Source of the DNA: Actinomycetes bacterium
GTDB taxonomy: Bacteria; Actinomycetota; Actinomycetes; Nanopelagicales; Nanopelagicaceae
NCBI GenBank assembly: GCA_025360085.1
Contig: JANYCW010000036.1
Coordinates: 1-35,422 of the forward strand
DNA length: 35,422 nt
Direction: 5' to 3'
The notes under the pieces are model-generated. The model saw only the letters and a list, made by a program, of their open reading frames with translations, was not told where the DNA came from and made no database searches. The translations under genes were made by a program, and so were the position numbers. Below are positions 5,998 to 18,637 of this stretch, piece by piece (the first letter of the stretch is position 1; each line of letters opens with the position of its first letter).

Positions 5998-6672
5998 GTG
6001 AGAATGCTCAATAAAGGAGATTTGGCAGATATCTTCTGGAGTATGAGCGTTGATAGTTTTTATGATGATCTAGCCGAAGAATTTCATGGCGGCGATGAGA
6101 TAGATCTTGATGCTACGTTGCCGGGAGTTACAGAGGGTGAGATTGTCGTGATTCGCTCTGCCAGGCGAAAGAAGAATATTTCGGCCTACCGTGCTGGTGG
6201 TCGAATCGTCGTATCCATCCCGGCCCGCCTGAGCAAGGCCCATGAGCGCTCGCTGGTCCCGGAGATGGTTGCCAAAATCCGTGCCCAAGAAGCGGTTGTG
6301 ACTATGAGTCACGATGCTTTAGCTCTGCGAATCGATGCCTTATTGGGCAGGTTGGCCCCTGAAATTTCAATCCGTCCCTCTAATGTCTCGTGGAGAGCGA
6401 TGCGCGAGCGGTGGGGCTCGTGTACAACTCTGGATCGCAGTATTCGTCTCTCAGATCGCCTCAAAGGCGCTCCGCACTATGTACTGGACTACGTTCTCTT
6501 CCATGAGGCGATTCATTTGCAGATCGGCGATCACGGCCAAGGTTTTAGGGCGGTATTAGCCAGATATCCAGGGGCCGATGCTGCCAGTGCCTACTTAGAT
6601 GGCTATGAGGCGGCCGAAACTGCGCTCGCTATGCCTGAGGCGTTGAAAAAACTCCTAAATAAATCTGAATAA
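5998..6672 (+). CDS. YgjP-type M48-like zinc metallopeptidase (DUF45)
   Basis: A 224-residue protein with the YgjP/SprT-like signature. It has a basic N-terminal block (IRSARRKKNISAYR), the conserved RWGSC motif at residues 138-142, and the zinc motif HEAIH at 169-173 with a third ligand candidate His179 in GDHGQGF. All expected metal and catalytic residues are present, so it is probably an active metallopeptidase of the cytoplasm. The substrate is unknown. The start is uncertain: the listed GTG at 5998 has no SD, while ATG at 6004 and ATG at 6043 have purine-rich runs placed unusually close. The conserved core begins only near residue 48, so any of these would encode a full domain. It precedes the DUF5679 gene by 104 nt. 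Confidence 0.88.
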   Translation: MRMLNKGDLADIFWSMSVDSFYDDLAEEFHGGDEIDLDATLPGVTEGEIVVIRSARRKKNISAYRAGGRIVVSIPARLSKAHERSLVPEMVAKIRAQEAVVTMSHDALALRIDALLGRLAPEISIRPSNVSWRAMRERWGSCTTLDRSIRLSDRLKGAPHYVLDYVLFHEAIHLQIGDHGQGFRAVLARYPGADAASAYLDGYEAAETALAMPEALKKLLNKSE

Positions 6673-14737: not shown

Positions 14738-14768
14738 GTAAGCAGTAAGCAGTAAGCAGTAAGCAGTA
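14738..14768. repeat. Microsatellite, 7-bp unit GTAAGCA, about 4.4 copies
   Basis: GTAAGCA occurs at 14738, 14745, 14752 and 14759, followed by a partial unit. Perfect 7-bp iterations are prone to copy-number change by slippage. It lies about 190 bp upstream of the tmRNA gene. Confidence 0.95.
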
Positions 14769-14951
14769 AAGTACGGAGTATAGATTAGTAAGCCGTTAAG
14801 AAATAGGAAGAAAACGAGTATTTGACAACTAAATAGAGAATAAGACATACGTTTCTTTTTCTCCAAAGAATATTCTCTATCTGTTTAAGCGAGTTCAAAA
14901 ATCCTATTAGGATCTTTGAAGGTTCAATGAATAGATGCGTGAAAACAACTT

Positions 14952-15319
14952 GGGGGTGAACGGTCTCGACTTTGGATGTTGAGACAGGGGAAGCGGGCCG
15001 AGGAAGCCGGAATGATCTCGTAAACCAATAATCCGTGCAAAAAATAACTGCTAATACATACGCAGACGATTACACAATAGCTGCATAAGCTAGCGTGAAT
15101 CCGTTAGCCCAGATGCCGCTCTCGGTCTGGAATCTAGCGTCGATAGAGGGCTTTTCATCACGTTGGTGTTGCGAACAACGTGAGAGAACAGTTTCGCAAA
15201 TGAGTTCGTCGAAGAGCTGTGTGGCCAAACTTCGGAACTGAGAAAGCGTTAATCACACTACGCCCGTAGAAGCCCTGTTTTTGCACCGAAGGACCCGGGT
15301 TCGATTCCCGGCACCTCCA
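14952..15319 (+). ncRNA. ssrA: Transfer-messenger RNA (tmRNA)
   Basis: A one-piece tmRNA of 368 nt. The 5' end GGGGGTG pairs with CACCTCC near the 3' end (15312-15318, one G-T pair), and the T-arm GGACCCGGGTTCGATTCCCGG completes the tRNA-like domain. The discriminator A is at 15319, and CCA is not encoded. The mRNA-like part has the AAAAAATA-type resume context followed by the tag reading frame 15050-15088. It encodes ANTYADDYTIAA, to which the charged alanine is added first, and ends in TAA. Pseudoknot-rich sequence fills 15089-15290. SmpB is encoded upstream. It rescues stalled ribosomes and tags the products for proteolysis. Confidence 0.97.
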
Positions 15320-15376
15320 CTTGGGCCATCTAACCTTTGCAATAGGGTTGGGCTGACAAATGCTTTAGGTTTATTT

Positions 15377-15407
15377 TTCCAACCTCAAATGCATAAAGTT
15401 CCAACCT
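15377..15407. repeat. Left inverted repeat of the ATPase unit
   Basis: Two direct TTCCAACCT blocks at 15377-15385 and 15399-15407 are separated by 13 bp of A-rich spacer ending AAAG. It matches the reverse complement of 17314-17344 with four mismatches. Confidence 0.85.
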
Positions 15408-15428
15408 GTAAATCCACGCTTAACTACT

Positions 15429-15450
15429 GGACCCGTGTTCGATGCCCGGC
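15429..15450 (+). other. Degenerate copy of the tmRNA T-arm (att-like remnant)
   Basis: The segment from GGACCCGTGTTCGATG to CCCGGC matches the T-arm end of tmRNA (15291-15312) at 20 of 22 positions and lies 138 bp downstream of it. Duplicated tRNA or tmRNA 3' ends are the classical scar of site-specific integration. The copy cannot form a tRNA-like acceptor, so it is not a second RNA gene. Confidence 0.6.
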
Positions 15451-15666
15451 CTCGGCGCCCACGACGAACGTGCGGTGGGTGACGAGCATCATGACGACGA
15501 TGAGCGTGCGGACGATGATGACGACGATGAGCAGGTGAAGGAGTTGGTAGTAGTAGGAAGTAGATCTGGGCTCTACTTGACCAGTGGTTGATTTATTAGC
15601 CCAATCTCTATTTATTTCATCCACCCGGGGCTATGTGACTTTTTCGACGACGTCCAGACTCTAGGG

Positions 15667-15754
15667 TCGTTTGGAAATTTCTTGATTATTCCCGCAATTA
15701 GTCGGTTGGACATGTTATTCGGTGCGGTTGGACACCTAAGGAGTCGGTTGGACA
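15667..15754. repeat. GTCGGTTGGACA-type motif cluster upstream of the ATPase gene
   Basis: GGTTGGACA begins at 15704, 15726 and 15746 (spacings 22 and 20 bp, about two helical turns), and a diverged copy GTCGTTTGGAAA begins at 15667. The core GGTTGGA is also the core of the terminal inverted repeats, and the 22-bp spacing recurs there. This suggests all are sites for the same DNA-binding protein. Confidence 0.7.
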
Positions 15755-15762
15755 CGACTTAC

Positions 15763-15853
15763 TTGACATTACTGTCATAGATGATACTGTCAATGATGAC
15801 AGTATCATTCGTAAAAGTTACTGTCATAGATGTTACTGTCATCATTGACAGTC
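15763..15853 (+). promoter_or_regulatory. Duplicated three-part operator overlapping a promoter
   Basis: The array TACTGTCA-N7-TACTGTCA-N4-TGACAGTA occupies 15770-15804 and recurs with one final-base change at 15819-15853, exactly 49 bp apart. TTGACA at 15763-15768 with TACTGT 16 nt downstream (15785-15790) would be a promoter whose -10 lies inside the first array. A second TTGACA (15845-15850) is part of the last array. The layout is that of an operator for tight, probably cooperative repression of the ATPase gene. Confidence 0.7.
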
Positions 15854-15876
15854 TTTTATAGACTGGAGTAATTATT

Positions 15877-17301
15877 ATGTCTGGGTTTGTAGGGCGCAAG
15901 GACAAGCTCGCTTATTTGGAAAAGAACTTGAGACAAATCGGTTCAGACACCGGAGACAAACCAGGGCGCGCTTTGCTTATGCGAGGACGCCGACGAGTGG
16001 GAAAATCACGCCTAGTAGAAGAGTTTCTGGAAGTTTCAGGCGCGCCAGGCGTCTTTTTTGCCGCCTCGAAGCAGACTCAAGAAGAAGAGTTGAGACTCTT
16101 CTCGGAAGCTGTACTGGAGTCAAACCTGCCAGGGAAAGGTGCATTTAATGGCGTGAACTTTACCAATTGGCCCGCAGCGCTTCGGATGCTGGTTTCAATC
16201 CTGCCAGAAAACGGACCCTCTGTCGTTGTCATTGACGAGCTTCCATATTTGATTCAGACGGATGAGGCTTTTGAGGGAACTTTACAGAAAATCTTTGATC
16301 GGGAAATGTCTCACAAGAGGGTGTTATTCATTGGAATTGGCTCAGACCTAGGAATGATGGAGGCGCTCAATGAATACGGTCGCCCATTTCATCAAAGAGC
16401 TACAGAGATGGTGATACCCCCGTTGAGCCCTGCGGAGGTAGCTGACATGTTGCAATTGAATTCAAAGGATGCCTTAGATGCCTATTTAGTTACAGGTGGC
16501 TTGCCGTTAATTTGTAGGGAGTGGCAGCCGGGAGCCACTCTCGTAGATTTCTTATCAGAATCCTTTGCTACATCAACATCAGCCTTGGTAGTAAGTGGGG
16601 AAAGATCCTTGGCGGCAGAGTTTCCTCCGGACGCACAACCTAGAGAAATACTAAGCGCTATCGGCTCGGGTGAGCGAACTTTTACAAAGATTGGTCTGGC
16701 AGCAGGTGGAATACAGCAAAAGTCGCTGCAACGTGGATTGGAAACACTTGTCGCCAAGAGAATACTTGCAGTAGATCTACCGCTATCTACAAAAATCTCA
16801 GGTGAATCCCGGTACTACATCACCGATCCATACTTACGCTTTTGGTTGAGTTTTATTGGCTCGCATCTGCCCGAGATTGAACGAGGTCGTGGCGATCGAG
16901 TCCTTCAGCGAGTACAAATATCTTGGACAAGCTGGAGGGGGAAAGCAGCCGAACCGATTATTCGTGAATCTATAGAACGGATCCCAAATCCAACTGTTGA
17001 AGGCGCAAGTCCGGTGGTCGGTGGTTATTGGACTCGGAGCAATAATCCAGAGATCGACTTAGTTGTGGCCGATCGAGCACCAGTCGCTAGGACAATTTTT
17101 GAAGTGGGCTCTATTAAGTGGAGAGACTCAGCTGAGTTTTCTGCTTCTGATCTAGCTGAATTAGAGACTCATAGGAGTCAATTGCCGGGTGCGACCCATA
17201 CCACGCCTCTTCTAATGGTTTCGAGGACTGGGTTTGGGGTAGTCGCCACTAGAGATCAACGGTTTTTAGGACCTGACGATCTGGTCAATGCTTGGCGCTA
17301 A
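15877..17301 (+). CDS. AAA-family ATPase with DUF234-like C-terminal domain
   Basis: A 474-residue protein. The N-terminal FVGRKDKLAYLE motif leads into a P-loop ATPase of the archaeal-type/DUF234 class, with Walker A GRRRVGKS (37-44) and Walker B VVVIDE (116-121). A winged-helix-like region is at about 240-300. The C-terminal segment has NPEIDLVVADR and FEVGSIKWRD, which corresponds to the PD-(D/E)xK-like DUF234 fold. Its GSIKW replaces the GEVKW of typical members, so nuclease activity is uncertain. Function of the family is unsettled; proposed roles include mobile-element maintenance and defence. TGGAG lies 8 nt before the ATG. It stands alone between inverted repeats with its own operator array and a terminator downstream. 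Confidence 0.85.
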   Translation: MSGFVGRKDKLAYLEKNLRQIGSDTGDKPGRALLMRGRRRVGKSRLVEEFLEVSGAPGVFFAASKQTQEEELRLFSEAVLESNLPGKGAFNGVNFTNWPAALRMLVSILPENGPSVVVIDELPYLIQTDEAFEGTLQKIFDREMSHKRVLFIGIGSDLGMMEALNEYGRPFHQRATEMVIPPLSPAEVADMLQLNSKDALDAYLVTGGLPLICREWQPGATLVDFLSESFATSTSALVVSGERSLAAEFPPDAQPREILSAIGSGERTFTKIGLAAGGIQQKSLQRGLETLVAKRILAVDLPLSTKISGESRYYITDPYLRFWLSFIGSHLPEIERGRGDRVLQRVQISWTSWRGKAAEPIIRESIERIPNPTVEGASPVVGGYWTRSNNPEIDLVVADRAPVARTIFEVGSIKWRDSAEFSASDLAELETHRSQLPGATHTTPLLMVSRTGFGVVATRDQRFLGPDDLVNAWR

Positions 17302-17313
17302 GGAGTATTTTTA

Positions 17314-17344
17314 GGGTTGGAACTTTTTCCATTTTAGGTTGGAA
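17314..17344. repeat. Right inverted repeat of the ATPase unit
   Basis: GGGTTGGAA (17314-17322) and AGGTTGGAA (17336-17344) are 22 bp apart. The reverse complement matches 15377-15407 at 27 of 31 positions. It begins 13 nt after the ATPase stop codon. Confidence 0.85.
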
Positions 17345-17418
17345 CACTGCCACTTTTGTTGGCCTTCTGGTAGGTCAGAGCAATGGTTAGCAAGCCACTT
17401 GTCATTGGGTACAAGTAA

Positions 17419-17459
17419 AACGACCGGCCCATGTCTACTTGGGTCGGTCGTTCTTTTTC
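17419..17459 (+). terminator. Rho-independent terminator between convergent genes
   Basis: A 13-bp stem, AACGACCGGCCCA (17419-17431) with TGGGTCGGTCGTT (17440-17452), has one G-T pair, an 8-nt loop, and TTCTTTTT after it. A shorter T4 flank on the other strand may let it also stop the RDD gene transcript. Confidence 0.9.
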
Positions 17460-17468
17460 TCGGTTGAG

Positions 17469-17526
17469 TTACTTATTGCACCTCTTACTTATTGCACCTC
17501 TTACTTATTGCACCTCTTACTTATTG
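17469..17526. repeat. Tandem repeat, 16-bp unit, 3.6 copies, reaching into the RDD gene
   Basis: TTACTTATTGCACCTC starts at 17469, 17485 and 17501. The partial fourth copy (17517-17526) forms the last codons and stop of the RDD gene on the minus strand. Each unit therefore carries a copy of the gene's terminal AATAAGTAA, as if the array grew by slippage from the gene end. Confidence 0.95.
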
Positions 17527-18190: not shown

Positions 18191-18637
18191 TTAATCCTGG
18201 CCTTCAGGGCCATTCCCATCTTTTCCACCAGAGCGTCCAGTTTGACGCCATTTCAAGATTGGCCCATGACGCGAAGTCGATTCACCCTGACCAAGCCCGC
18301 TATTTATTGATTTATTGTTTGAATTTTTCATAAATCCGAATCTTGTAAGCAACGGTGTAATGATTCGTACATGAGGCATGTATTCGCGTCGAAACGCGAT
18401 GTATCCCATAATCAGTCCATAGAGCCCAATGAGATGCACACCGAAAGCAGCATCCGGGTTAATGAAAAACATCATCCCGACCCATAACGATATTGCCACA
18501 AAAAAGCCATGAATAACTCTACGAATGAGAGTGAGCGGAAAGGAACTGGATTTAAACTTCGTCAAGCCAATTGCAATTGGTCCGCTAAGAAAGGCAGTCA
18601 GAAGCAGGATAGAGACGAGAAGTGCCAAACTCTCCAT
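18191..18637 (-). CDS. Membrane protein of unknown function
   Basis: A 148-residue protein with three predicted TM helices (about residues 5-25, 38-58 and 66-84) and a polar, Gly/Ser/Lys-rich cytoplasmic tail after about residue 90. No family is recognised. Its ATG shares one base with the stop of the GNAT gene upstream (TAATG), so it is translationally coupled to that acetyltransferase and probably expressed with it. Confidence 0.65.
   Translation of the reverse strand: MESLALLVSILLLTAFLSGPIAIGLTKFKSSSFPLTLIRRVIHGFFVAISLWVGMMFFINPDAAFGVHLIGLYGLIMGYIAFRREYMPHVRIITPLLTRFGFMKNSNNKSINSGLGQGESTSRHGPILKWRQTGRSGGKDGNGPEGQD

Follow-up and report, generated by a model that had tools for sequence, protein, structure and literature searches.

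The locus and its ATPase

The stretch of DNA analysed here (the window: 35,422 nucleotides from an actinomycete of the family Nanopelagicaceae, GenBank assembly GCA_025360085.1, contig JANYCW010000036.1) carries, beyond the 3' end of the transfer-messenger RNA (tmRNA) gene ssrA, a gene for a DUF234-type AAA+ ATPase that is enclosed by an inverted repeat and preceded by a periodic promoter array. The family-wide cis-element of DUF234 genes is this promoter array (15771-15852), not the inverted repeat. The array, the gene and the predicted domains of its product are as follows, with positions counted in the window.

15771-15852, forward strand: promoter array of 15-bp period with inverted half-sites, core ACTGTCAT / ATGACAGT (inverted repeats 15771-15809 / 15814-15852)
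15877-17301, forward strand: DUF234 AAA+ ATPase of the PADLOC PDC-S27 type, 474 amino acids (model confidence, as predicted local distance difference test (pLDDT), 89)
15877-16521, forward strand: AAA+ domain, residues about 1-215, Walker A GRRRVGKS (Pfam ATPase_2 at 15-209)
16624-16824, forward strand: predicted winged helix, residues about 250-316, likely the DNA-reading domain (three helices and two strands in the model; boundaries by eye)
16843-17133, forward strand: DUF234 domain (PF03008, about 35.2-38.9 bits), PD-(D/E)XK-like, with S-x-K replacing E-x-K

Two Pfam families were recognized in the product, ATPase_2 (PF01637; E 3e-9, 37.4 bits against a cut-off of 33.2) and DUF234 (PF03008; E 2e-8, 35.2 bits against a cut-off of 22.5), as expected from the original prediction, made from the letters of the window, that essentially one DUF234-type AAA ATPase gene lies within the repeats. 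The PADLOC profile PDLC04984 (PDC-S27) matched residues 1-397 with an E-value of 5.7e-25 (judged by E-value, not by the PADLOC cut-off), NCBIfam contained no family for the ATPase, and a PDB sequence search up to E 1 returned no match. In a 2026 census of defence systems, PDC-S27 is an ATPase fused to a member of the PD-(D/E)XK group (PMC12988326). The window protein shares this plan of an ATPase and a PD-(D/E)XK domain (whole-protein match, E 6e-25) and differs from it in that its actinobacterial subfamily has S for the E of E-x-K; the promoter array, too, goes unmentioned in the available part of PMC12988326. Among aligned actinobacterial proteins, S412 was found in 37 of 37, whereas all 14 aligned distant homologues have E-x-K; of the other residues of the DUF234 motif (residues 392-414), D394 was kept in 36 of 37 actinobacterial proteins and K414 in all 37, as was K43 of Walker A (37/37). 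An intact PD-(D/E)XK set (D ... E-x-K) was thus not found in the actinobacterial DUF234 subfamily. S-x-K combined with a displaced acid occurs in some restriction enzymes, so that nuclease activity may be either lost or kept.

Read by eye, the AlphaFold model (37 sequences, mean pLDDT 89) divides into an AAA+ domain, a winged helix and, at the C-terminus, an alpha/beta domain. Its nearest solved structures are two archaeal AAA+ ATPases, PABY2304 (2QEN; Z 19.6, root-mean-square deviation (rmsd) 3.5, 298 residues aligned) and SSO1545 (2FNA; Z 18.2, rmsd 3.7, 295 residues aligned), which match model residues 1-326 at a sequence identity of 17-20% and barely cover the DUF234 part after about residue 333. 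The next matches are ORC/Cdc6 proteins (2QBY, 1W5T and others, including DNA-bound entries), which share the AAA+ plus winged helix of the model; with 1W5T the alignment extends to residue 332, and with 2QBY, at rmsd 9.1, to residue 314. Structural matches in general barely probe the residues after 333. The ATPase product models as a protein built like ORC/Cdc6, with AAA+ followed by a winged helix, plus a DUF234 domain. We take the likeness as one of predicted build and claim no membership; sequence identity is 9-17%, the window protein has a fused DUF234 domain, and the window array is a promoter beside its own gene and not an origin.

The ATPase gene was absent from all 72 other genomes of the same genus that were searched (G001-G072, many of them incomplete), and the best eight homologues of the same search (51-60% identity) belong to other families of the class. 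The sequence comparisons therefore suggest that the gene was probably acquired horizontally.

A 15-bp promoter array upstream of DUF234 genes

The window array ends 24 bases before the ATPase start codon and has a self-match score of 24 at a lag of 15 bp (shuffle p 0.005), the best score at any other lag from 8 to 29 being 5. For comparison, actinobacterial loci were taken as the best 80 of at least 540 confirmed candidates (52-66% identity), with start codons set at protein-match starts and not by annotation. These loci include related groups (for example, many Micromonospora with common flanks), and counts are therefore not independent; results for thinned sets are given as well. Upstream of 75 homologues, the mean lag-15 self-match was 0.41, compared to 0.22-0.32 at other lags. 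Directly past the gene it was 0.29, and in the stretch 300-400 bp upstream it was 0.34, multiples of three being generally raised there and lag 15 no higher than the others. In a per-locus test of 79 sequences including the window (L097 and L165 were left out for short upstream DNA), lag 15 reached p <= 0.05 in 63, that is, in 62 of 78 actinobacterial homologues and in the window, and palindromes were significant in 53 of 79 upstream sequences. The signal persisted after thinning by protein identity (35 of 42 sequences significant at <78% identity, 12 of 13 at <65%), and lag-15 scores of 10 or more occurred upstream of 39 of 78 homologues versus 18 of 581 other long open reading frames (ORFs) of the same loci (Fisher p 2e-27).

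The array sits at about -65 to -20 in the homologues, and its dyad centres, clear in the actinobacterial set, are spaced 7.5 and 15 bp apart, so that each unit contains inverted half-sites. The half-site itself varies by lineage, from GATACTATC-like in many actinobacteria to TTTGG-type in some Streptomyces and ACTGTCAT in the window. An array downstream of the gene as well was clear in one of 67 loci (window included): at L163 (Nonomuraea; 6417-6502), a diverged copy of the promoter array stands directly past the gene.

Having emerged from the actinobacterial set, the 15-bp period was put to the test on 19 distant homologues (22-29% identity; archaea and other bacteria). These came from 145 matching plasmid records and were picked to cover a wide range of taxa, 7 in a first round and 12 in a second, each time ahead of scoring; the close Streptomyces homologue L181 was not counted among them. 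Lag 15 was significant in 15 of the 19, from both archaea (Halorubrum, Haladaptatus (two), Halorussus, Halobaculum, Natrinema, Halobacterium, Haloferax and Haloarcula) and bacteria (Mesorhizobium, Rhizobium, Vibrio, two Bacteroides and Arcobacter), with a mean score of 12.2 at lag 15; the means at all the remaining lags between 8 and 40 were 3.3-5.3. Dyad centres were weaker in this set, only the 7.5-bp signal being clear.

A second ATPase family of the same class, DUF4143 (PF13635), likewise has a periodic array directly upstream of its genes and differs in the period and the arrangement of the sites, which are repeats in one orientation at 22-24 bp instead of inverted half-sites at 15 bp. 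From 30 DUF4143 loci, six were omitted (L210, L212, L213, L220, L222 and L223; mostly short, partial or with broken frames) and L195 was dropped for short upstream DNA, giving 23, of which L214, L200 and L207 have no Walker A in the chosen frame. Here the lag-15 score was at background (3.96) and the lag-23 score was 13.2; 16 of 23 genes were significant at 23 bp, a period found by scanning all lags, so that these per-locus p values are after the fact, and two others had strong arrays at 22 and 24 bp. Among DUF234 genes, lag 15 scored highest in 49 of the 78 from actinobacteria and in 14 of the 19 distant ones; among the 23 DUF4143 genes it did so in 1, and lag 23 in 15. The period therefore follows the ATPase family. 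Where DUF4143 arrays are strong (16 loci), their sites lie together by the start codon in one orientation and not at both gene ends; arrays with a period of 22-24 bp can be seen, for example, at L194, L196, L197, L198, L201, L215-L218 and L221. Across Bacteria and Archaea, then, the 15-bp period of DUF234 promoters is conserved while the unit sequence changes, and DUF4143 genes lack it. Judging from searches of open-access PMC, where no title or abstract start reported 15-bp promoter arrays, the array seems to be unpublished.

On balance, we think it probable that the locus holds a stand-alone, horizontally acquired DUF234 AAA+ ATPase gene, a candidate defence gene of the PDC-S27 type, whose product assembles on its own 15-bp promoter array. 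ORC/Cdc6 initiators bind repeated origin boxes, and the working mode on an iterated array would therefore be comparable. The ORC/Cdc6-like product would line up along its own promoter, its subunits attached in a row through the winged helix, with one two-fold-symmetric contact per 15 bp and the pitch set by subunit geometry, and this assembly would lead to self-repression; a nucleotide state or a foreign-DNA signal could then alter the assembly and free or redirect the fused PD-(D/E)XK-type domain. That the product itself would be the binder is suggested by a pitch that stays fixed while the sequence drifts in hosts as distant as haloarchaea and actinobacteria, and by the lack of any other factor known to be shared by all of them. 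That binding would repress is suggested by the position of the array over the promoter region, and the role of the whole may be defence. The original prediction had alternatively proposed that the inverted repeats are binding sites that organise DNA around the gene, which comes nearer to this family-wide result, in that it suits the 15-bp promoter array and not the inverted repeat to which it had been applied.

Binding of the array by a host factor, or a role of the array as an RNA or DNA structure, with the ATPase not the binder in either case, seems to us quite unlikely. Many arrays are palindromic, so that hairpins are possible (53/79 significant), and covariation between array and winged helix was not shown, as such an explanation would allow; against this, the same period occurs with different units in actinobacteria, haloarchaea, Bacteroides, rhizobia, Vibrio and Arcobacter, which leaves no evident shared factor other than the gene product, and the DUF4143 ATPases show a different period.

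Several points weigh against assembly of the ATPase on its own array. Binding of the array by the protein is a computational prediction, and a significant 15-bp signal was missing in 16 of 78 actinobacterial homologues, in 4 of 19 distant ones (Haladaptatus sp. QDMS2, Desulfosarcina, Emticicia and, at p 0.058, Natrialba) and in 9 of 18 homologue loci of the genus and class search (L006, L007, L014-L016, L018, L019, L023 and L021, the last with masked upstream DNA; L008-L013, L017, L022 and L024 were significant). Array and protein did not covary significantly in 42 sequences (the peak fell at residues 343-363, p 0.23; a winged-helix stretch, residues 268-288, ranked fourth, and array similarity hardly followed overall identity, with r 0.07). 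Because the catalytic E of E-x-K is S in the actinobacterial subfamily, nuclease activity may have been lost there. The defence role is a database label, and the array might instead serve a host regulator or act through DNA or RNA structure. Most PDC systems, according to the census, lack experimental validation (PMC12988326).

The inverted repeat and movement of the gene

The features that bear on how the gene may have arrived behind ssrA are the following.

14952-15320, forward strand: tmRNA gene ssrA (ARAGORN; Rfam RF00023, 147 bits, 14952-15322)
15377-15407, forward strand: left inverted repeat, 27/31 identical to the right arm, the only copy pair found in the genome
15431-15452, forward strand: degenerate copy of the tmRNA 3' end (18/22 match), attachment-site-like, between ssrA and the ATPase gene
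15701-15754, reverse strand: three iterons TGTCCAACCG, 22 and 20 bp apart, with TCCAACC in common with the inverted repeats
17314-17344, reverse strand: right inverted repeat, 12 bases past the ATPase stop codon

The repeat, its coordinates and its identity of 27/31 are as originally described (alternatively, 27/30 at 15377-15406 / 17315-17344), as are the doubled blocks at each end, which read TTCCAACC-N14-TTCCAACC with the octamers 22 bp apart from start to start, and the position next to the tmRNA gene, on which ARAGORN and Rfam agree. Sequence identity of the arms ends at the outer octamers on the left and on the right. A chance origin was ruled out: across the gene flanks the inverted repeat scores 21, whereas 300 dinucleotide shuffles averaged 8.1 and never exceeded 12; by BLAST, the repeat was found in its own 1.63 Mb genome with E = 8e-4, and no further copy of it appeared there at E <= 0.001. 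The unit encloses one family-size gene, 15877-17301. Besides it, ORFs of at least 80 amino acids are one of 85 amino acids (15281-15538, partly inside the unit) and one of 91 amino acids (16482-16757, on the reverse strand inside the ATPase gene); no transposase-sized second ORF was found in the unit, the family searches not covering these two. Both borders (...TTTATTT / unit / CACTGCC...) were read again, and, as first reported, no target duplication was visible.

Beyond the window, repeat ends with up to three mismatches were found in the own genome only, both among 135 genomes of the genus and among 394 genomes of the class (drawn from a larger group). Two extra pattern matches proved to be single ends with different spacers (G067, reading as a coding repeat, and G110). 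Viral contigs gave no match to the repeat-end pattern, and none of 49 viral stretches that matched peptide patterns of the ATPase encoded a relative. Ends of a known insertion sequence (IS) were ruled out, as the ends had no other copies in the genome, genus, class or viral-contig searches. The exact pair of TTCCAACC blocks 19-25 bp apart occurred at 0 of 80 actinobacterial homologue loci, and none of 75 testable homologues had an inverted repeat like that of the window in the 600 bp upstream and the 300 bp downstream (best 15 versus 21); with flanks of 1.5 kb, L112 (27) and L101 (21) match the score of the window, their upstream arm lying more than 1.3 kb away. The family thus does not carry the repeats along. 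Found at this locus only, 15377-15407 / 17314-17344 probably mark the ends, or what is left, of an insertion by which the gene reached the variable site behind ssrA, and are probably not something that the ATPase requires. Conspicuous repeats at one copy can be local, and a family-wide feature may be less striking.

These results do not support the originally proposed 'ATPase-mobilised' transposon unit, in that its ends were found in the own genome only, its exact octamer pair occurs at none of 80 homologue loci, and no target duplication is visible. That the repeats are not conserved together with the gene is also one of the outcomes named in the original prediction as refuting it. A non-autonomous transposon, with the inverted repeats as ends, a transposase acting in trans, the ATPase gene as cargo and the doubled 22-bp octamers as transposase sites, we hold to be unlikely. 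Such a unit would fit arms whose identity stops at the outer octamers and whose doubled sites stand 22 bp apart at both ends, far above chance, as well as the lack of the gene in the 72 congeners and the variable site behind ssrA. It would not fit the missing target duplication, transposase-sized ORF and second genomic copy, nor ends that were seen in one of 135 genus and 394 class genomes, in no viral contig and at none of 80 homologue loci. The window thus resembles an insertion sequence in its terminal inverted repeats and differs from one in lacking a target duplication, a second ORF of transposase size and further copies in the searches made.

Movement of another kind is suggested by direct repeats. 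In 6 of 72 homologues the gene lies closely between direct repeats, compared with 4 of 415 shifted control positions (Fisher p 0.001), at a score threshold of 17; at a threshold of 14, the counts are 8/72 versus 27/415. At L132 and L141 the bracketing repeats are tRNA-Gly 3' ends, at L092 a direct repeat of at least 71 bp lies at the 3' end of an upstream ORF, at L134 the direct repeat is 57 bp long with no further full copy in that genome, and two Frankia loci (L115 and L130) have direct repeats of 38 and 23 bp. The 3' ends of tRNA genes face the gene within 400 bp at L090, L139 and L132. At L141 (Streptomyces), four partial tRNA-Gly 3' ends (417, 4654, 6599 and 7944), with the ATPase gene between two of them, read as tandem accretion. 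The direct repeats around some homologues make it plausible that single genes of the DUF234 family move, probably by means of outside recombinases. Of the mobile unit first proposed, the boundary thus stands, mobility of a single gene is plausible (given these direct repeats and the absence of the gene from the 72 congeners, many of them incomplete), and mobility based on the inverted repeat is not supported.

Whether the window gene itself was carried to the 3' end of ssrA between attachment-type direct repeats, by an integrase in trans and with the inverted repeats incidental, is another matter, and we regard this as doubtful. The bracketed homologues (6/72) and the tRNA 3' ends at L090, L139 and L132 would be in keeping with it, and the window does have a tmRNA 3' end and a degenerate copy of it; yet this copy (15431-15452), though it resembles a former attachment site, is on the wrong side for an attachment bracket: it comes before the ATPase gene, on the ssrA side, and not after it. 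No third copy was found (the next-best match to the tmRNA 3' end in the window is 15/22), the best direct repeat bracketing the window gene is 12 bp long, 66 of 72 homologues are unbracketed, and the excess shrinks at the lower threshold. Cis-mobilizable elements (CIMEs) are genomic island modules bracketed by attachment sites; some homologues resemble them in lying between tRNA 3'-end direct repeats with little beyond one gene, and the window differs in lacking the bracket.

The iterons raise a further alternative. The 35.4 kb window contains 12 TCCAACC/GGTTGGA sites, 7 of them inside the unit, with neighbour spacings of 22, 22, 20 and 22 bp; the iterons at 15701-15754, which can also be written CGGTTGGACA, hold the GGTTGGA sites at 15704, 15726 and 15746. 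The GGTTGGACA iterons were rejected as an end of a known IS, their two-iteron pattern occurring in the own genome only among the 394 class genomes. That the 22-bp doublets and the three iterons are leftover arrays of a lost DUF4143-type ATPase, with the inverted placement arising from successive insertions at one site, strikes us as very unlikely. The spacing of the TCCAACC cores does come close to the 22-24 bp of DUF4143 sites, and on one contig (G077:C31, that of L134) DUF234 and DUF4143 genes stand side by side. The own genome, on the other hand, has no DUF4143 match, DUF4143 sites cluster at the start codon in one orientation with only scattered single sites of two mismatches elsewhere (L215, L216, L218 and L221), and two copies are a weak signal.

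The preferred reading, a DUF234 product assembling on its own promoter array, might extend to both ATPase families. Tentatively, the stand-alone ATPase-nuclease genes of both, DUF234 (PDC-S27) and DUF4143 (PDC-S01-like), could form one self-addressing class in Bacteria and Archaea in which promoter DNA serves as a ruler with a family-specific pitch (15 bp and 22-24 bp, respectively). As parts of the same tentative proposal, the own AAA+ product assembled on the ruler might be the resting or sensing state, and the 22-bp octamers of the window a second ruler from a related system, successive ATPase units having piled up at one site. A pitch that is fixed for each family and outlasts changes of sequence and of domain of life offers a handle on such systems, as it predicts the DNA ligand, the protein arrangement and a reporter assay. 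ATPases of the DUF234 and DUF4143 types, the latter of which we take to be PDC-S01, are among the commonest candidate defence genes. In the 2026 census, PDC-S27 accounts for 3503 systems in Archaea and 4562 in Bacteria, and PDC-S01 takes fourth place among defences (PMC12988326).

The variable site behind ssrA

The DNA behind ssrA differs among relatives. In G037, an RDD-family gene (66% identity) lies 2.8 kb past ssrA with other ORFs between, and the sequence of G037 that can be aligned with the window starts at window position 17516. In G052, G125, G017 and G057, an RDD-family gene (39-45% identity; two with an internal stop) follows ssrA with no ATPase gene between, and several relatives (for example L060, L061, L062 and L066) have DNA similar to the window gene at 18191-18637 close behind ssrA. 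Because the G037 alignment starts only at 17516 and the contents of the site differ among relatives, we regard 15321-17515 as variable DNA. In the fetched relatives, what lies between ssrA and the following gene could not be aligned with the window flanks, and no alignable empty site was preserved. A blastn search of 15321-15876 against plasmids gave a single match, of 49 bases, to a haloarchaeal plasmid.

Three minor features adjoin the site. In a number of same-genus assemblies, ssrA is interrupted or truncated at contig ends, which suggests strain-level variation at ssrA. Upstream of ssrA, a tandem repeat of the heptamer GTAAGCA was read by eye at 14738-14769. Past the unit, a 16-bp tandem repeat (TTACTTATTGCACCTC) with more than three copies occupies 17469-17526 and extends into the 3' end of the RDD gene.

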